A stretch of 64,000 bases of DNA. Source: Cryomorpha ignava (GTDB lineage: Bacteria; Bacteroidota; Bacteroidia; Flavobacteriales_D; Cryomorphaceae). Below are positions 1,655 to 37,827 of this stretch, piece after piece; the stretch's first letter is position 1; each line of letters starts with the position of its first letter. Where the stretch lies: positions 62,001-126,000 of the forward strand of contig NZ_JAAGVY010000001.1 of the NCBI RefSeq assembly GCF_010686655.1, given 5' to 3'. The translations under genes and the position numbers were made by a program. A model generated the notes under the pieces. The model had not been told where the DNA came from. It saw only the letters and a list, made by a program, of their open reading frames with translations, and searched no databases.

Positions 1655-3469
1655 TTATTCTAAAAGTTCGGTAACCTCAATGCCGTGACGCAGTATTTCC
1701 AATCGGACTCTTACCGAATCTCTCTGCAAAAACCGAGGCAATACAGGGGGTTTGACAATATTTCGATGCATCAATTCTTCAATCATATCTACATGATTTA
1801 TATTGAATTTTCCGGTGTAAAGCGTCTCTAAATTTCTGCCTTTTTTCAAATAATCCATTACATCGAGCAATCCTGCAAGATAAACAGCATCTTTCACCAA
1901 CCCACCGCCACGATAAATGCGCATGGCAATGTAATATGAAGTATAATCTGAAAAACGGCGTGCACGCAAAAGGTTAAATGTTTCTATGAAACTTGCCCCT
2001 TTTACCATAGATTCTGCCGCTATCACCCTTCCGGCAAGTGTGCGCATTCTGTTTATACTTAATCCTTTAACTAGGTATTCTGCCAGTACCGCAAGCCCTT
2101 CCTGTAGCTGATCGTATCGCGAAAACCCGGCATACATTTGCTTTAACGGCTGATTTCGCCCATTACAATAAGTAACAATATGGGTCGCAATTTCGTGCTG
2201 AATCAATGCATCGCACCGGCGCTCATCAAGTGTAAACTGGTCGCTAATCAGCAAGGAGCTTTGGGAAACCATAATACCGTTTACATCCTTTCTTATTTCC
2301 AGACATAGAGGTGTTTCAGGAAATTCTTTTTGATAATAATCCAGTTCTTTCTGCGCGCGGCGCGCAAAGTCGTGGCAGCTTAACGCTGTTATTTCTTCGG
2401 AGCTGTCCTGATCTGGAAATTTCTCCAAAATTTGGTTGGCTGCAACGATCACGCGGTCTTCTATTTTACCGTAAAGGCTTTGGCCGATGTAGCGAAAGTT
2501 AATGGTATTTCGCTCCTCAAGCATGGTGAGCTGCTTTTCGATTTCCAATCGTTTGTCGCGCAAAATATATGCTATGGTTGGATCCTTAATCTTTTCTAAA
2601 GGAATATTGTAAAGCTCGCGCTTTTTCCTTTCGGGATCTATAGAAATAAGACGATAATTGAATGCGGGCACTTTGGTAAAGTTATTCTTTTGGAAATTTT
2701 CCCACTCCGTTGTTCCATTTACCGGAGTTACTCTAAGCAAAAAAGACATTTCTTCGCTAATTCCTGCTAACAGGCTGTCGGCATTTAAAGTAACTTTCTC
2801 CAGCTTCGTTTTTCCCAGCATGAGATAATGCCCAAAGGGATTTGAGGTTTGCACGCGAATAAATTCAAAAGCCGCCCGCTTTATAATCTCTGAAAAATAG
2901 GAGTAAAAACGTCTGTAAAACAGGGAATAAATTTCTTCCTCCGCTGTATTTTGATAAATAGCAGGCACTGCAATTCCAATAATCAAACTTCCAGATTCTT
3001 TTGATTCATCTACATTCATCAAAGGCGCCAAATCTCCGCGTTGTCTATTCTTAGTGTTTATCACTTTGGCAGAAACACCCGGATAGATTTTTTTTATCTT
3101 TTCAAATCCTTTTTTCAACGAAGCAATCGTTGCCACTGCTTTATTCTCGGGACAAAATATTCCAAACTGCGCATCGTGTGCCGTTCGCACAGGCCACATT
3201 TCCAAAATCAAAAAAGCATTTAGTTTTTCTGATACCGATATTGAAATCTCTTTCAAAAGTTCGGAAATATCCAGTTCGGCATCGGCAATAAGGTACGAGG
3301 CCTGCGTTTTTAACAATCCGGCAAAGTAGGGATCGTCATTCTTAAAACGGTAAACACAAATATACGGAAGCGGCTTTTCGATATGTAGCATTCCATTTTT
3401 GGGCAGTTCTAAATTTATAGACTCACCGGCTTCAATTTTGCTTTTTACTGTTTGAATCGTTTCAATCAT
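1655..3469 (-). CDS. DUF1704 / QEGLA-motif putative metallopeptidase
   Basis: The 604-residue protein belongs to the family annotated as flavohemoglobin expression-modulating QEGLA motif protein (TIGR02421/DUF1704). Zinc-site residues are visible as HEIATH (H425, E426, H430) followed by the naming motif LQEGLA, with E457 as the likely third ligand. Animal members of DUF1704 (MATCAP/TMCP) are tyrosine carboxypeptidases with the same HExxxH arrangement, so a peptidase or carboxypeptidase role is a reasonable inference. There is no signal peptide, so it should act in the cytoplasm. Its start overlaps the end of the amidohydrolase gene by 4 nt (ATGA), a sign of translational coupling. The flavohemoglobin label comes from annotation history; nothing here points to nitric oxide metabolism. 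Confidence 0.87.
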   Translation of the reverse strand: MIETIQTVKSKIEAGESINLELPKNGMLHIEKPLPYICVYRFKNDDPYFAGLLKTQASYLIADAELDISELLKEISISVSEKLNAFLILEMWPVRTAHDAQFGIFCPENKAVATIASLKKGFEKIKKIYPGVSAKVINTKNRQRGDLAPLMNVDESKESGSLIIGIAVPAIYQNTAEEEIYSLFYRRFYSYFSEIIKRAAFEFIRVQTSNPFGHYLMLGKTKLEKVTLNADSLLAGISEEMSFLLRVTPVNGTTEWENFQKNNFTKVPAFNYRLISIDPERKKRELYNIPLEKIKDPTIAYILRDKRLEIEKQLTMLEERNTINFRYIGQSLYGKIEDRVIVAANQILEKFPDQDSSEEITALSCHDFARRAQKELDYYQKEFPETPLCLEIRKDVNGIMVSQSSLLISDQFTLDERRCDALIQHEIATHIVTYCNGRNQPLKQMYAGFSRYDQLQEGLAVLAEYLVKGLSINRMRTLAGRVIAAESMVKGASFIETFNLLRARRFSDYTSYYIAMRIYRGGGLVKDAVYLAGLLDVMDYLKKGRNLETLYTGKFNINHVDMIEELMHRNIVKPPVLPRFLQRDSVRVRLEILRHGIEVTELLE

Positions 3470-4485
3470 AATTCCATTTCCATAAATTCAGCGGCTTGCT
3501 GCGGAATAAGTTTTATCAGTTGTTGCTCTGTAGCTCGCACTATTTCGGGAAATTCTATCCCTGTTTCTTCATCACAATATACTTTGGCTATTTCGGTGGC
3601 GAGTACAAGCGTATTTTTAAAATGCGCTGTAATGTACTTTAGAAAAAATCCGTTTCCCTGAAATGTATCATTTATTTTAGCGCCCGATTTTATCCTTTCG
3701 GGAAATGTAATCTCAGCCAGTTTCTCTCTCCATGATTCAGCAATTCTGCCAAAGCGTTCATTGTTTATATTCCCTGTTCCTATATTCCATGTAGGTATTT
3801 CTCTGTCCCACCTTTTTCTATTAAAGCTGTGCATATCAAATACCACAGCCCTACCGTGAATATTTTCAACTTTGGCCACCAACAAAGCTATCACTTTATA
3901 AAATGCAGTGTGCTTTTCGATGCTTTGTTCCCTCTCCAGATCAGTAAGCGGTTGTTTCCAAAGTTTCTTTCCCCACGCATCGTCGTAAATAGCATTTTCG
4001 GGATCGCGGTTTAAGTCATATTCAAAGCGGCTGTCTCGCCCGGCAATAACTATGGGGTGCGATTGAACCATTTCTTTTGTACAAGGATCTTCCTCGTACC
4101 AGCGCTCGTATTCGCTATGCGTACATTTTTCCCAAAGCTCCTTTCTAAATTGATGACCATCGTGCACTGCGCCGCATATATATGGAGTGTAATCTGCTAT
4201 TTTAATTGTAAAAGAGTAGTCGTAAGCCACGGCTTCAAAAGTCTGCTCCTTATTTATATTGTCAATAATTTCAGAAATACGAAGTTTTTGCATTGCTTCC
4301 ATGATTGCTGTTGTTTGAAAATAATCAACCTTTAAAATCAATAAAAGTTCAGAAAAGGCTTGAGATGGATCGGAATCATAATTAATGAAAACTCCTTTAT
4401 GAGTATTGTAAACAATCGTCGCCAAATGGTAGTTTTGTTGTCGCAAATAGTGCAGATCTCCATTAGTAAAAATTTCTTTGCGCAT
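3466..4485 (-). CDS. N-formylglutamate amidohydrolase family protein
   Basis: At 339 residues it carries the FGase (PF05013) signatures: GRDSRFEYDLNR, VVFDMHSFNRKR, NDTFQGNG and ATEIAKVY. The family hydrolyses N-formyl or related N-acyl amide bonds with a metal ion. No hut genes are in view, so histidine degradation is unlikely. The start codon sits inside the 3' part of the truncated esterase ORF (4338-4964) with no promoter-sized gap. Expression must therefore depend on transcription started in or upstream of that esterase remnant, or on a promoter inside it. It is the first gene of a minus-strand trio with the DUF1704 peptidase and the ATP-grasp ligase. The family call is firm; the physiological substrate is unknown. 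Confidence 0.88.
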   Translation of the reverse strand: MRKEIFTNGDLHYLRQQNYHLATIVYNTHKGVFINYDSDPSQAFSELLLILKVDYFQTTAIMEAMQKLRISEIIDNINKEQTFEAVAYDYSFTIKIADYTPYICGAVHDGHQFRKELWEKCTHSEYERWYEEDPCTKEMVQSHPIVIAGRDSRFEYDLNRDPENAIYDDAWGKKLWKQPLTDLEREQSIEKHTAFYKVIALLVAKVENIHGRAVVFDMHSFNRKRWDREIPTWNIGTGNINNERFGRIAESWREKLAEITFPERIKSGAKINDTFQGNGFFLKYITAHFKNTLVLATEIAKVYCDEETGIEFPEIVRATEQQLIKLIPQQAAEFMEMEL

Positions 4486-4964
4486 GTCAGAACCATCATG
4501 CCGGCCAGGATAATTTCAGACTTTGGGTGAACATTTCTAACGCATTCAATCATCGTTATCAAATTCTTTTTTGTCTCTGCCGGCGGAAGTCCGCGCAGAC
4601 CATCATTAGCGCCGAGGTCCTGAATGAAAAGATCGACATCTTTTTTTTCCAAAACCCAGTCAATTCGGCTTAAGCCGGTAGCGGTAGTCTCTCCGCTCAC
4701 TCCGGCATTTACAACAGTGTAGGGCAGATCTAAGGAATCAATACACATCTGAATCAAGGCAGGAAAAGATTCATCTGCCTCAACCCCATAGCCGGCGGTG
4801 AGGCTGTTGCCAAAAAAGAGGATTGTTTTTTTGTCTTCTGATTTTACTCTAGTCGATGTTGTATCACTTTTAACGGGTTCAGATTTATCGCTCACATCGT
4901 TATTAGAACATCCGACTAATGCGAAGAAGACAATGGACGAAAATAATTGAATGGTTCTTTTCAT
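4338..4964 (-). pseudogene. SGNH esterase lipoprotein, 3' end lost and fused into the next gene
   Basis: The first ~157 residues are a good arylesterase: a signal peptide with lipobox-like VGCS, block I as FFGNSLTAGYG, ESFPALIQ, AGVSGETTATGLSRIDW, block III LGANDGLRGLPP, and EIILAGMM. After AGMMV the reading frame stops looking like an esterase and runs 147 nt into the amidohydrolase gene in a different frame. The tail is therefore junk and the block V Asp-x-x-His catalytic pair is missing. The deletion junction falls almost exactly at the amidohydrolase ATG (4485). A paralogue with about three-quarters DNA identity by eye lies at 1-359. The protein should be inactive, but its promoter and transcript may now drive the downstream trio. 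Confidence 0.8.
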
Positions 4965-5159: not shown

Positions 5160-5568
5160 ATGAAAGCACACACACACACACTTACTTGCTAATCAAAGAT
5201 TTATAACAACATCTCTATTGTTGTTTATTTTTACACTTATGGCCTCGCTTCAAGCAAAATCTCAAACTCAATTGCATTTGTCCAATAAATCAGACTGTGA
5301 TTTTGCGGTAGAAATTGTTCTTTGCAACACTAGTACTGTAAGTTCGGCCTGTGCACCAAATGATGTTTACACCGTTTATTTAGTTGATAACATCGATTAT
5401 TTCAAAGTCTTTTTTGTTCCAATTTTAAATTTTTCGACTCCCGATGTTGAAATTTCCCCGGGTATTAATTGTAACACTTATTATCAATCTGGAACAAGTC
5501 CATGTGGTGGATATCAAGCTGGCCCTTCAACAGGAATCCCACAACAATATAATTTTGCAGCCTACTAA
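5160..5568 (+). CDS. Small secreted protein, start out of frame through a (CA)7 tract (possible phase-variable gene)
   Basis: As sequenced, the ATG at 5160 reads only ten codons across a (CA)7 run and stops at 5090+2 bases into the next triplet set (TAA at 5190-5192). The long frame starts just beyond and is open from 5164 to 5568, but its first possible start is a TTG at 5218. Adding one CA unit (or removing two) joins the ATG to the long frame. This gives a 136-residue protein whose beginning is a textbook signal peptide (a basic/polar start, then TTSLLLFIFTLMASLQAKSQ). The mature part is ~105 residues with six cysteines and no family I recognise. It ends 6 nt before the next gene, so the two are probably co-transcribed. 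The state shown would be OFF or weakly expressed. A sequencing indel is the main alternative. Confidence 0.6.
5167..5180 (+). repeat. (CA)7 dinucleotide tract in the 5' end of a coding region
   Basis: Seven CA units directly follow ATG AAA G and are followed by CTTACTTGC. A tract of this type at the extreme 5' end of a gene is a classic slipped-strand contingency configuration. Eight or five units put the ATG in frame with the signal peptide downstream; seven or six do not. Confidence 0.85.
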
Positions 5569-5574
5569 TCTGAT

Positions 5575-7527
5575 ATGTTACGAATGTGTCGAAATACACT
5601 CTTTTTAGCGCTACTCTTTTTTTACTCACAGTTCTTATTTTCGCAAGAAAACCAACTGGTTTATAAAAAGGTAATTCCGGGGTCATCATTTCGGTTTGTG
5701 CCTTCACCAGATAGCTTAGGTTATGCAATAACCTACCAATGGCAATCATTTGGTACTCCAAGCGTAGATATTGGTGTTTGGTCTGAAATTCCTCAAAATT
5801 TGGTTTTAGATGGAACCACTTTTACCAGAGGGCTTATTTTATATGATTTTAATTTTGAACCAACCGGAGCCACTCTTATTAATGCTTTAGGAAGCCAAGA
5901 TATTGCTTGGCTTCCTAGCGGTCAAGCGATAATAAATTTTAATCGAGAATCGGATTTTAATACAACTCCAGAGTTATTTCCAACTATTCCAACAATCGAT
6001 AATTACCCATCGCCAACCTATGGTCAGAATGTATTTATAAGATACGACCCCGCAACTGAAACTAATATAGGACTTTTGAACTTTTCAGTTTCTTTCTTCG
6101 CGGAAGATCAAGAGCCCTTTAATGGTTACAATCATGCTGTCGACTGGCTATCGGTAAGCAATAAAAACTATAAAAATACAGTTGTAGTAAGCGATAGTAT
6201 TTTGATATCGTATGTGTTACTAGATGGAGAACAGACTCTAAACAATTCATTTGAATTCACAAACTGGGGAGGTCAAGTACATCTTGTGAGATTAGAATTA
6301 AATCTAAATACCAATGAATTGACCAGTCAACAAATTGGTTCATCCACAGGCAGCCAGTTTTTATCGCGTGTAGAATCAAGTCCAAATATGCCATTCTTAT
6401 GGAGAGCTGGAATTGTGCGTGGGAACGATACGCCCATCAGTATTTCGGGAGCAGAACTTGAAATGGCTTCTAATGACTCACTTTACCATGTTTATATAAC
6501 AAAAGAGTCTATTACTGGAGAAACCGAGTGGCTAACTGAGCTATATGCTTACAATAATTTATTCCCAGATACTGCACTTTCGTTTGACACAAAAATTTCA
6601 GTCCGAAATCATATAAACAATATTTTAAACAAAAATGACAACACGTATATAAGTTCCACTTTTTCCGCCTTAAGTCACGACGGTGATACCCTATTGTTCA
6701 GAAACCATTTAGGACAAGACAACTCATATATAGATTATTTTCCAAGCTCTCCAATACTACCGGAACAACTACATATCTCCTATTCCGAAGCCAGCCTATA
6801 TAAAATAGATGATAATGGAAATGTAACCGGTAAGTTGAGCTATACCTATGATGCAATGAATTTTTTCAACCGCAATCCAAGAGTTTCTCTTTATGATGTT
6901 GAAGACAGGCTCGCATGGGTACAATCCTATATTGCTCTAAATGATACTACCATAGTGTTCACACTTACAGAATCTGATGGAAGTGAGCAAACTACAAACC
7001 TTAGCCTGCCAGCAGGGAAAGGAACGGTGATAATATGGCTCGATGAAGATTTAAGTATTTTAAACCAATGGATCATTCCCTATCAGCACAATATTGGCAG
7101 TGGTGGTTTAAGCATTAACGCGATTCTCCCTTATCGAGGTGATACCTTACTTATTCAAGGAATGTTGGGTTATAATACCTCTTCTGATCTAAATCCATTT
7201 GCTGAAACTGAACTTATCACTACAGAAAGCCCAACCTCTTTCTTTGCATTTTACTCTGCTCCTGAGATTTTTACGAGTACAGAGAAAATTAAAAGTCCTA
7301 CAAACTTTAAGGTATATCCCAATCCCTCCTCCGTCTATATTCGTGTTTCGGGAGCATATGGCCAACAAGCCAATTTCAAAATCTTTGATCTATCAGGGCG
7401 TATAATTCAGTCTGGTAATATCTCCCAAAATGAATTGATAAGTACTGAAAATCTGAATAGTGGTATGTATATGCTGTGGATAGATTCTGAAAATGGAGGT
7501 GGGACGGCTAAGTTTGTAGTAGAGTAA
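5575..7527 (+). CDS. Type IX secretion (type A) cargo protein, ~650 residues
   Basis: An N-terminal signal peptide (LFLALLFFYSQFLFSQ) is followed by ~540 residues rich in Asn, Ser and Thr with no recognised catalytic motif. The end is a clear type A type IX sorting domain: NFKVYPNPSSVYIRV, FKIFDLSGRIIQSG, and LNSGMYMLWIDSENGG near the terminus. The mature protein should be exported by SecYEG and then by the type IX system to the surface or medium. The repeated short beta-strand pattern in the middle looks like a propeller-style surface protein, but this is only an impression. It follows the small secreted ORF by 6 nt, so the pair may be co-expressed and share the repeat-controlled upstream region. 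Molecular function is unknown. Confidence 0.85.
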   Translation: MLRMCRNTLFLALLFFYSQFLFSQENQLVYKKVIPGSSFRFVPSPDSLGYAITYQWQSFGTPSVDIGVWSEIPQNLVLDGTTFTRGLILYDFNFEPTGATLINALGSQDIAWLPSGQAIINFNRESDFNTTPELFPTIPTIDNYPSPTYGQNVFIRYDPATETNIGLLNFSVSFFAEDQEPFNGYNHAVDWLSVSNKNYKNTVVVSDSILISYVLLDGEQTLNNSFEFTNWGGQVHLVRLELNLNTNELTSQQIGSSTGSQFLSRVESSPNMPFLWRAGIVRGNDTPISISGAELEMASNDSLYHVYITKESITGETEWLTELYAYNNLFPDTALSFDTKISVRNHINNILNKNDNTYISSTFSALSHDGDTLLFRNHLGQDNSYIDYFPSSPILPEQLHISYSEASLYKIDDNGNVTGKLSYTYDAMNFFNRNPRVSLYDVEDRLAWVQSYIALNDTTIVFTLTESDGSEQTTNLSLPAGKGTVIIWLDEDLSILNQWIIPYQHNIGSGGLSINAILPYRGDTLLIQGMLGYNTSSDLNPFAETELITTESPTSFFAFYSAPEIFTSTEKIKSPTNFKVYPNPSSVYIRVSGAYGQQANFKIFDLSGRIIQSGNISQNELISTENLNSGMYMLWIDSENGGGTAKFVVE

Positions 7528-17610: not shown

Positions 17611-18756
17611 ATTCGTGCATTAGTGGCAAAGAAAAAGCGCCGAAGGCGCTAAAAAATCTTGCCACGAATGCACGAATAAAAATGCGTGGACTAACATTTA
17701 TCCTTTCGGTTGAATTATAAATCACAATATAAATTACCTTCAACAAAGCTCTCTCCGATTCCAAAAATCATTCGTGCATTCGTGGCAATAAAAACGTGCC
17801 GAAGGCGCGCCCCAAATAAAGTAATCAATTAGAAAATTATAAAAGTCTAAATGAGTTCCATCAATCTTCCTTAAATTAGAGAAAACATAACCAAAATAAG
17901 TAGAAATGGAACACCTAAAATATAAAGAAGAGAGCTATGTAATAATCGGCAAATGCATGGAAGTCCACAATAACCTTGGCCCGGGATTTCTGGAAATAGT
18001 TTACAAGGATGCTCTGGAGTATGAATTTTATACTGCCGATATTCCCTATGAGCGTGAAAAGAAGTACGAAGTAAATTATAAAGGAATTATATTACCGCAT
18101 AGCTTTTACGCGGATTTTGTGGTTTTTGACAAGATTATTTTAGAAGTCAAAGCTGTAAGAGCAATGCCCGACGAGTATATCGCCCTATCCATTAATTATT
18201 TAAAAGTTTCTGGAAATGAATTGGCTCTATTGGTGAATTTTGGAGAGTTGCGATTAAATTCTAAACGGATAGTATTCTAAATTACAATACCACTTATGGC
18301 GCTTAAAAAGGTAGCCACGAATGCACGAATAAAAAATGCGTGGATTACAAACCAAACTTTCTGATGAATTGAAATCAGTAGTTGAATCACCTTCCACATA
18401 GCTCTCTCCAATCACAAAAATTATTCGTGCATTCGTGGCAATAAAAAGCGCCGGAGGCGCTAAAAAAGGTAGCCACGAATGCACGAATAAAAAATGCGTG
18501 GACTACAAACTAAACTTTCTCCTGAATGGAAAATCGAAATTAAAATCACCTTCACAAACCATCTTCAAACAACAAAATTCATTCGTGCATTAGTGGCAAT
18601 AAAAAGCGCCGGAGGCGCTAAAAAAGGTAGCCACGAATGCACGAATAAAAAATGCGTGGACTACAAACTAAACTTCCTCCTGAATTGAAAATCAGAATTT
18701 AATTCGCATTCCACAAAGCTCTCTCCAATCACAAAAATTATTCGTGCATTCGTGGC
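17611..18756. repeat. Tandem ~158-bp palindromic repeat array, five copies, one carrying a gene in its loop
   Basis: Each copy contains a left arm ATTCGTGCATTCGTGGC, a small GC hairpin GCGCC-gga/gaa-GGCGC, and a right arm GCCACGAATGCACGAAT, followed by ATGCGTGGA and ~80 bp of shared spacer. Left arms begin at 17611, 17770, 18423, 18581 and 18740. Right arms begin at 17661, 18314, 18472 and 18630. Spacing is 158-159 bp. In copy 2 the left arm (17770) and right arm (18314) are separated by the GxxExxY gene, which sits where the central hairpin loop should be. Copy 5 keeps only the left arm and hairpin and abuts the sucB stop codon. Confidence 0.9.
17906..18280 (+). CDS. GxxExxY protein
   Basis: The 124-residue protein has the family signature GPGFLEIVY (GxxExxY) plus a PD-(D/E)XK-like pattern: YADFVVFDKIILEVKA (Asp, then Glu-x-Lys) and the closing stretch LLVNFG with ELRLNSKRIVF. 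The family resembles small nuclease folds and is abundant in Bacteroidota; no experimental function is known to me. Here the gene lies between the two halves of a long palindromic repeat unit and is transcribed independently of its neighbours. That arrangement suggests a selfish or repeat-maintaining element rather than a housekeeping gene. The start at 17906 is preceded by an A-rich leader (AAAATAAGTAGAA). Confidence 0.88.
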   Translation: MEHLKYKEESYVIIGKCMEVHNNLGPGFLEIVYKDALEYEFYTADIPYEREKKYEVNYKGIILPHSFYADFVVFDKIILEVKAVRAMPDEYIALSINYLKVSGNELALLVNFGELRLNSKRIVF

Positions 18757-18764
18757 AATTAAAA

Positions 18765-18777
18765 GCGCCGAAGGCGC
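18765..18777 (-). terminator. GC hairpin at the end of sucB
   Basis: GCGCC-gaa-GGCGC, the central hairpin of repeat copy 5, sits 3 bp beyond the sucB stop codon and is followed on the minus strand by TTTTAATTGCC. It may act as the operon terminator, so the repeat array could have been recruited for that job. Confidence 0.5.
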
Positions 18778-25853: not shown

Positions 25854-26235
25854 TTCTTGGTTTTTAGTTCTTGGTGTTTGGTGTTGGGTTTTCGCAGTCG
25901 CCAGGCTTTTAGCTTGGGGACTAATCGTCCGCCGGGTTCTCTGGGGAAATGTTTAATTTATTTCAATAGATCAAGGACTATATCCATTCATTAACTCCAT
26001 TAAAAATCCTGGCGAGACGCCGGAGTAGACTACCCTCGCGGGACGCGAGCGTGTGCGTCAGGAGCGAAACCTAAGAAATTCTCATCCCAAAAACCAACGA
26101 CCGAAGGGAGCCCGTATGGGGAACTAACAACCAAAAACCAATCACCAAAAACTCACACCGAACACCAACGTCCGAAGGGAAGCTCGAACTGGGAACTAAC
26201 AACCAAAAACTAATCACTAAAAACTAATCAAAAAC
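25854..26235. repeat. Non-coding stretch of degenerate direct repeats
   Basis: No ORF is convincing here. Motifs of the kind TTAGTTCTTGG / CCAAAAACTAATCA recur. A ~70-bp unit (CCAACGxCCGAAGGGA ... AACTAACAACCAAAAAC ... ACTCACACCG) is present twice, at about 26094-26160 and 26165-26242. The second copy overlaps the last codons of the NifU-like gene, so the unit seems to have duplicated from that gene end. Confidence 0.6.
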
Positions 26236-32397: not shown

Positions 32398-32439
32398 ACT
32401 CAATACGCAATACTCAATACTCAATACTCAATACTCATT
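32398..32439. repeat. Heptanucleotide tandem repeat (ACTCAAT)6
   Basis: Six consecutive 7-bp units, with ACGCAAT as unit 2 and ACTCATT as unit 6. It lies in the gap between murI and the Skp/BamA operon terminator. Confidence 0.85.
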
Positions 32440-32455
32440 ATCAAAAGTACAAAAC

Positions 32456-36935: not shown

Positions 36936-37827
36936 ATCAATTGCGGGCTGCAAATGTCTGAATTTTAGATCAGATCAGAAAACGAAATTTTTCGTGCTGG
37001 TTTTAACATGTTTGCCGGGCTAAACTTCCGGTTGCTGATTTAGTAAAATGCTTACAGAAACCAATGCCTTGTGCTAAACTTGTAAAAGTACGATTAATTG
37101 TATTAGAAGGGATAAAGAAATAGAAAAGCCGTAAGAATATTAACAGAATAGGTTTTTATTTTCTGAAAAGAGCTGGAAAACGCCTTAAGAAATGCGTGGG
37201 TAGCAACGATGTGGAGCTAAGAATTTGGTGTATGGAAAAATACCTGGATTAGTGTAAATCATACTCAAAACTTGTGTGGTAGCATCTCCTGGTACCGAAA
37301 TCCAGTGCCGCTCAATTGCAAACTACTGTCATTCAATCCTTCCGCGCACCCCCGACCCCTTCCATACAGACTCCCAAATGGTCGAAAGGATAGTTTTCGC
37401 CGCACACATTTCGACTAAGCATTTCGACAGGCTCAATAACCACTCAATGCATCGCATTATCGTTCCGTGAAAAGCTTCATTTTAGTTATGCTAAATAATA
37501 GCATATTCATGAATAAAATTACTCCCGTGTATAATCTTTGCGGTTGCGCTCTTTCTGCATCCGACTAGGTTTTTTGCCGAGAGGAAAGCACAGGCGCGGG
37601 AAGGCACTGTTGTGAAGCTATCCTTAAGCTCCAAATATCCAAAGTCAAATTTCACTAAACATGTATCAAGTGATTAGTTAGACCACAGTAAATCCTTACG
37701 GACAAGGCTTTCTATCCAAAACTATTGATAACCTATTAAATAAAAAAGCTAAAGCTAATCCTTTCTGAAAAGCCTCTCTCGACTAGAGACTAGAGACTAG
37801 AGACTCGCGACTAGAGACTAAACGCTC
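36936..37827. other. Long intergenic region with repeat fragments
   Basis: About 890 bp with no convincing gene. Around 37327-37461 it has fragments of the same GC-rich mosaic seen at 54.8-55.1 and 61.4-62.4 kb (CCGCACACATTTCGAC, CTCAATGCATCGCAT). It ends in the heptamer array at 37781-37822. Confidence 0.5.
37781..37822. repeat. Heptanucleotide tandem repeat (GACTAGA)6
   Basis: Six consecutive 7-bp units. Unit 4 is GACTCGC and unit 6 GACTAAA. It lies 5 bp from the stop codon of the last PorP/SprF gene. Length and design match the array at 32398-32439. Confidence 0.85.

Follow-up and report, generated by a model that had tools for sequence, protein, structure and literature searches.

A CA-dinucleotide tract as a probable phase switch of a small secreted protein gene in Cryomorpha ignava

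Does the run of CA units that follows the ATG at position 5160 act as a reading-frame switch for a secreted protein, or is it an accident of evolution or of assembly? The question concerns a window of 64,000 nucleotides from the genome of Cryomorpha ignava (the whole stretch of DNA that was analysed), in which a putative signal peptide and a small protein lie in a frame that this ATG does not read (Table 1). As the original prediction had stated, seven CA units lead from the ATG through ten codons to a stop, which was confirmed on the letters themselves. Its further claim, that eight or five units would lead into the signal peptide and a 136-residue protein, holds as well, the product being 136 aa long with eight units and 134 aa with five. 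Eleven units give 138 aa, whereas 3, 4, 6, 7, 9, 10 or 12 units give only 8-18 codons. A change in unit number therefore moves the gene in or out of frame, as in a simple-sequence-repeat contingency locus. Lengths of the first kind are called ON and those of the second kind OFF in the following, and the assembled genome is in the OFF state.

Table 1. Features of the CA-tract locus and of the gene downstream (positions in the window)
Feature	Position	Strand	Remarks
ATGAAAG(CA)7CTTACTTGC	start ATG 5160-5162	+	letters read off the window
(CA)7 tract	5167..5180	+	plus one C at 5181; codons 3-7
OFF frame as assembled	5160..5192	+	MKAHTHTLTC, 10 codons, TAA 5190-5192
Putative ON-frame signal peptide	5182..5256	+	LLANQRFITTSLLLFIFTLMASLQA; preceded by MKAHTHTH with 8 units
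ON coding region, small secreted protein	5182..5568	+	136 aa in total with 8 units; TAA 5566-5568
NKSDCDF motif	5284..5304	+	also in the small CA-tract proteins from G019 (as NKTSCDL) and G203 (as NTTDCDI)
Cargo gene	5575..7527	+	650 aa; ATG 5575, 6 nt past the small-gene stop 5566-5568
Type A T9SS sorting domain of the cargo	residues 580-649 (7312-7521)	+	Pfam PF18962 6.6e-12; TIGR04183 2.5e-13

The ON product reads MKAHTHTHLLANQRFITTSLLLFIFTLMASLQA / KSQTQLHLSNKSDCDFAVEIVLCNT...; its mature part, about 100 residues long, contains Cys. The N terminus of the product was judged by eye and hydropathy to look like a typical signal peptide, in whose n-region the tract codes for His-Thr repeats. 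This signal-peptide-like N terminus and the type IX secretion system (T9SS) cargo gene downstream mark the locus as one of surface or secreted products. The present sequence offers no normal start elsewhere from which the full signal peptide could be read. The TGA at 5161-5163, overlapping the ATG, shuts the ON frame upstream, and TTG 5218 is the first ATG, GTG or TTG codon of this frame past the tract. With seven units, the downstream frame can therefore start only at TTG 5218 or at a later codon, and such starts are without a charged n-region. It could be argued that translation nevertheless begins at TTG 5218 and that the tract is a mere leader with no switch, considering that TTG can initiate translation in bacteria and that the ORF 5218-5568 is open. 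However, such a product (MLFIFTLMASLQA...) would be without the Lys/Arg n-region, and the other loci described below join the tract to the signal peptide via ATGAAA. Relatives fixed at seven units with a working TTG start, which the original prediction had named as evidence against itself, were not what was found: the counterpart in genome G019 has six units and is in frame from its ATG. We consider a TTG start very unlikely.

The tract is the sole run of six or more CA units found by a genome-wide scan of the 5.0-Mb genome, (CA)5 being reached at just two further places; a first-order Markov model predicts (CA)7 about 0.01 times per 5 Mb. Its length is thus exceptional in the genome, which is another mark of a contingency locus, and this sole long run sits where gene switching is possible. 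It should be noted that one argument of the original prediction, namely that chance would seldom leave the DNA from the tract to the signal peptide free of stops, did not survive, because the 12 codons from the tract to TTG 5218 would be stop-free with a probability of 0.52. For the whole ON frame of 128 codons, openness by chance has p ~0.0005. The codon score of the ON frame was 0.18, compared with 0.29 (sd 0.10) for the true frames of the window genes and with a mean of -0.20 and a maximum of 0.11 for frame-shifted windows of the same genes; since one antisense frame scored 0.20, as high as the ON frame, the codon-score test is supportive and not decisive.

An error of assembly or consensus would offer a simple account of the OFF state, in that the true length would be eight or five units and the gene constantly ON. 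The genome is a 149-contig draft, and a dinucleotide run is a plausible error site. On the other hand, the 15-nt run is far below read length, out-of-frame tracts occur in many independent assemblies (13 of the 19 loci discussed below), and eight units, if correct, would still make this the genome's one long CA run and leave it mutable. An assembly error is, on balance, improbable. An invertible promoter at 5160 was also considered and rejected: inverted repeats flanking a promoter were not found, the repeats around the start being a perfect 10-nt pair 213 nt apart and an 82% identical 17-nt pair 415 nt apart, both of which reach into coding DNA. Scans for sigma-70-like promoters and terminators performed no better than on shuffled sequences, and the Rfam search gave no match.

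The small protein has no homologues detectable by sequence search in its own genome or in 150 relatives, and no matches in Pfam, NCBIfam or the PDB sequences; single-sequence AlphaFold prediction yielded no usable model (pLDDT 42.7). No copies of a shared leader were found elsewhere in the genome of the window. The next gene, 6 nt on, had been predicted to encode a type IX cargo protein, and the two sorting-domain matches of Table 1 bear this out. The nearest counterparts of the locus were found through the position of the tract, and not by sequence search. The first, in G019, belongs to the same order and to a different family, and has the leader ATGAAAACAATTTTTA(CA)6, in frame from the ATG and therefore ON; a small protein of 170 aa, with NKTSCDL near the mature N terminus, is followed after a 6-nt gap by a gene for a T9SS cargo protein of 635 aa. 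The 110 C-terminal residues of the cargo proteins of G019 and of the window can be aligned (31% identity, E 3e-9), and most of this stretch is the sorting domain. The second counterpart, in G203, which belongs to the same class, has (CA)11 and is OFF; its 190-aa protein with NTTDCDI precedes a T9SS-like cargo protein of 438 aa, the sorting domain of which is borderline (26.8 bits against a cut-off of 27). Gene order, tract position and motif are thus alike in both genomes, and we propose the CA-tract small protein and the T9SS cargo as a two-gene cassette.

The three small proteins have in common the motif N[KT][ST]xCD. The slightly wider pattern N[KTS][STN]xCD-hydrophobic has a chance of 0.0002-0.0003 per protein (2-3 per 10,000 shuffles of each), and a six-frame translation of the window, which includes the small gene, contains it once. 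The small proteins are likely, though not proven, to share an ancestor, because the motif N[KTS][STN]xCD was picked after the sequences had been inspected and because pairwise similarity of the window protein to those of G019 and G203 is weak outside it. The G203 small protein was modelled as beta-rich with modest confidence (pLDDT 62.6). Foldseek gave no matches for the model at E 0.001, and the model's Z-scores with unrelated beta-sandwich proteins were no more than mid-range (the best 8.1, with a Vps13 domain, and the others about 5), so that no fold is claimed.

The design that recurs at these loci is ATGAAA-N-(CA)n, encoding M-K-x-HTHTH, ahead of a signal peptide. When 395 genomes of the class were scanned for ATGAAA-N{0,9}-(CA)6, with the reversed pattern as control, five genomes (that of the window included) had the pattern and two had the reversed control; with (CA)8 the figures were four and none, all of these being small counts. 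CA-tract genes are therefore rare in the class. A scan for (CA)7 of about 85,000 species genomes gave 87 loci, about half of them in Bacteroidota, with scattered cases outside the phylum. Tract loci, defined as ATGAAA-N{0,12}-(CA)7+, were scored as successes if a single frame led on to a hydrophobic segment (within 35 residues) and stayed open for 90 or more codons, or as far as the contig ended. This was true of 22 of the 38 distinct Bacteroidota loci, as compared with 19 of 366 control ATGAAA sites drawn from the same DNA (Fisher p 2e-15) and with 4% of random positions, which indicates that CA runs after ATGAAA mark signal-peptide genes. The products include SusD (L067), an M60 peptidase, a beta-propeller and T9SS cargo proteins, as well as lipoprotein-like proteins in Mesonia, Flavobacterium and Cyclobacteriaceae. 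One carrier is a cultured strain, Mesonia hippocampi DSM 29568 (L031), whose tract has 9 units and is OFF. One further tract, in G060 (L137), was left uncounted because no signal peptide follows it.

Among 19 loci, the window locus and the G311 copies described below being excluded, six are ON and 13 OFF, the 1:2 ratio expected of a free-running length; the count is approximate, as L052 and L069 come from one MAG, L085 comes from an Ignavibacteriae MAG and a few loci run off contig ends. Some of the OFF loci are one unit short and some one unit over. These phases and mixed directions of shift argue against selection for a fixed length and against programmed ribosomal frameshifting. The original prediction of a CA-tract frame switch of a secreted protein is well supported by this comparison, in which both recurrence and phases point to a switch in the signal-peptide n-region.

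Similar tracts were observed in other contexts. Bacteroidales MAGs (Prevotellaceae, Dysgonamonadaceae and others; L022, L023, L034, L045, L050, L074, L093) carry the leaders ATGAAATATTTTGCTAA(CA)n or ATGAAAAATTTTGCTAA(CA)n, which encode MK[YN]FAN(TH)n; these do not lead into a long ORF with a signal peptide. Outside Bacteroidota, a CA-tract repeat family consists of multi-copy short elements in an uncultured Clostridium MAG (L024, L037, L054, L065, L066) and in Clostridia S26M_St_7 (L019, L044, L060, L094), where ATGAAAATACTA(CA)10-14 or ATGAAAGAACTA(CA)11 precedes a conserved tail that is a few tens of codons long. Three lipoprotein-like paralogues of Oscillospiraceae Glo450_bin9 (L039, L041, L097), with ATGAAAGCCACCCGC(CA)8-11, are all out of frame in the assembly; they look like an independent instance of such a switch beyond Bacteroidota.

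A set of tracts within one genome was found in G311 (Bacteroidia MAG-324, 99% complete), in which 12 leaders of the type TAACCCTTTAATTT...ATGAAAAAAT(CA)n precede a signal peptide (L114-L122, L013-L015). Their unit numbers are 5, 6, 6, 8, 11, 11, 12, 14, 15 and 18, plus one CG+(CA)13 and one degenerate 3. In the main group the 250-300 nt past the tract are about 94-98% identical and free of gaps, so that the tract is the part that changes length. Between L118 (18 units) and L121 (12 units), the first 80 ON codons show four synonymous and no non-synonymous differences; the pooled ON-frame pN/pS of 0.32 indicates that the ON frame is under purifying selection. Sequencing noise alone was rejected as the source of the tract lengths, being unlikely in view of their recurrence and of these paralogues. 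Two or more unrelated kinds of protein carry this leader, one with beta-propeller-like repeats and one with Ig/PKD domains (L117), suggesting an exchange of leaders among genes. In Neisseria, the opa genes form a family in which each copy has its own CTCTT pentanucleotide repeat in the leader-coding region. The G311 leaders resemble them in that each owns a tract and could switch independently, but they differ in having a CA dinucleotide in place of CTCTT and in preceding proteins unrelated to Opa.

These paralogues also bear on two further explanations of the window locus. A frameshifted pseudogene, left dead by a one-time change in tract length, would fit the OFF state of the assembly, and no sequence homologue in the 150 related genomes speaks for conservation. 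Nevertheless, the 128-codon frame is fully open with coding-like codon use, the G311 paralogues keep their ON frame under selection although all of them are OFF, and G019 has the same two-gene layout in the ON state; decay of the gene is thus an unlikely account. The other explanation is programmed ribosomal frameshifting on the repeat, by which OFF alleles would still be expressed at a low level. It would reconcile the purifying selection on the ON frames of G311 with the fact that none of the 12 copies is ON in the assembly (p 0.012, where one third ON is expected). However, the OFF loci would need opposite shifts and six of the 19 are already ON, whereas a programmed site keeps one direction and one sequence, and (CA)n is not known as a slippery sequence. 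We regard frameshifting of this kind as extremely unlikely; for the all-OFF state of G311, either the population is mostly OFF or the bias has some other cause.

The reading that we prefer is that (CA)7 is a contingency switch of the simple-sequence-repeat kind, which turns the small secreted protein on and off and is OFF as assembled, and that the OFF state probably lowers the cargo too; we think this likely, and the CA-tract switch as a whole is likely genuine. Replication slippage would add or remove CA units in codons 3-7. With 5, 8 or 11 units the signal peptide and the mature protein would be in frame with the ATG, and other lengths would stop early. The hydrophilic n-region would be expected to tolerate extra His-Thr pairs, and in-frame changes of length should matter little. 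An early stop would leave about 380 nt untranslated ahead of the cargo gene. As this gene starts only 6 nt downstream, the OFF state probably lowers its translation too, via lost coupling or polarity. The small protein and the cargo may act together at the cell surface, and any benefit might be bet-hedging with a surface protein in the face of phages, predators or hosts. Slippage in this species, its rate and its effect on the cargo gene are what we infer from the locus. MutS and MutL are intact in the genome of the window, in G311 and in G203; since seven units is also short, the tract of the window may switch slowly, with faster switching to be expected of longer ones like the G311 tracts.

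The closest described system is oipA of Helicobacter pylori, in which a CT dinucleotide repeat in the signal-peptide region sets the frame by its length (PMC10564699). The window locus is like oipA in having a dinucleotide repeat at the 5' end of a surface-protein gene, within the signal-peptide region, with OFF lengths that lead to an early stop. It is unlike oipA, a Hop porin gene, in that the repeat is CA, in that the product would be a small secreted protein and the next gene encodes a T9SS cargo, and in that it lies in a member of the Bacteroidota with intact MutS and MutL and is known here from one assembled sequence. Within the phylum, the invertible promoters of Bacteroides, which control SusC/SusD family and capsule loci, likewise cause on/off variation of secreted and surface proteins, and one of the tract genes encodes SusD; however, those promoters switch by invertase-driven DNA inversion, while the window locus would change in its coding frame. 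The passages on phase variation in a 2025 review require reversible switching at a rate detectable without selection and, for Bacteroides, deal with inversion systems only (PMC11868660).

The original prediction had held that CA-tract phase variation is little described in Bacteroidota, and our literature search, with most subscription papers outside it, found no account of it. Repeat-based phase variation is a known mechanism; its CA-tract form in Bacteroidota probably is undescribed, although novelty is not proven. We lean, by a little, to the broader view that Bacteroidota hold an overlooked class of CA-tract contingency genes, in which an ATGAAA-(CA)n-signal-peptide leader stands on T9SS cargo, SusD and lipoprotein-like genes and in at least one genome is shared by different proteins as a family of 12 copies, and that repeat-based phase variation of the secretome exists there beside invertible promoters. 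Phase variation in Bacteroidota is viewed mainly as DNA inversion, and if such a class is real, surveys of variable surface proteins miss a second mechanism. Gene callers would also drop or truncate such genes, most assembled copies being out of frame, and only part of a population might make type IX cargo.

Some other features were noticed during the analysis. On the minus strand, at 4338-4964, lies an ORF for a lipoprotein that by eye resembles GDSL/TesA-like esterases. Family-like sequence seems to be lost near its C terminus, and about 150 nt of the ORF overlap with the next gene (3466-4485); it is possibly truncated or frameshifted. Heptamer tandem repeats of the ACTCAAT, GACTAGA and AACTAATCACCAAA types occur at 26093-26230, 32398-32444 and 37781-37820 of the window, and similar ones on contig 5; they are possibly a dispersed intergenic repeat family. 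Contig 5 of G000 also contains, at positions 1-1160 of L002, a CRISPR array with the 37-nt repeat CTCAAAGACCAAATCCAGTAAGAACAAGGATTGAAAC, at the end of which two near-identical spacers resemble the genome's own A/C-rich repeats (window 26203-26227, three mismatches in 25). Finally, a 158-bp unit is present in three tandem copies, with 86% matches, at 18298-18777 of the window.
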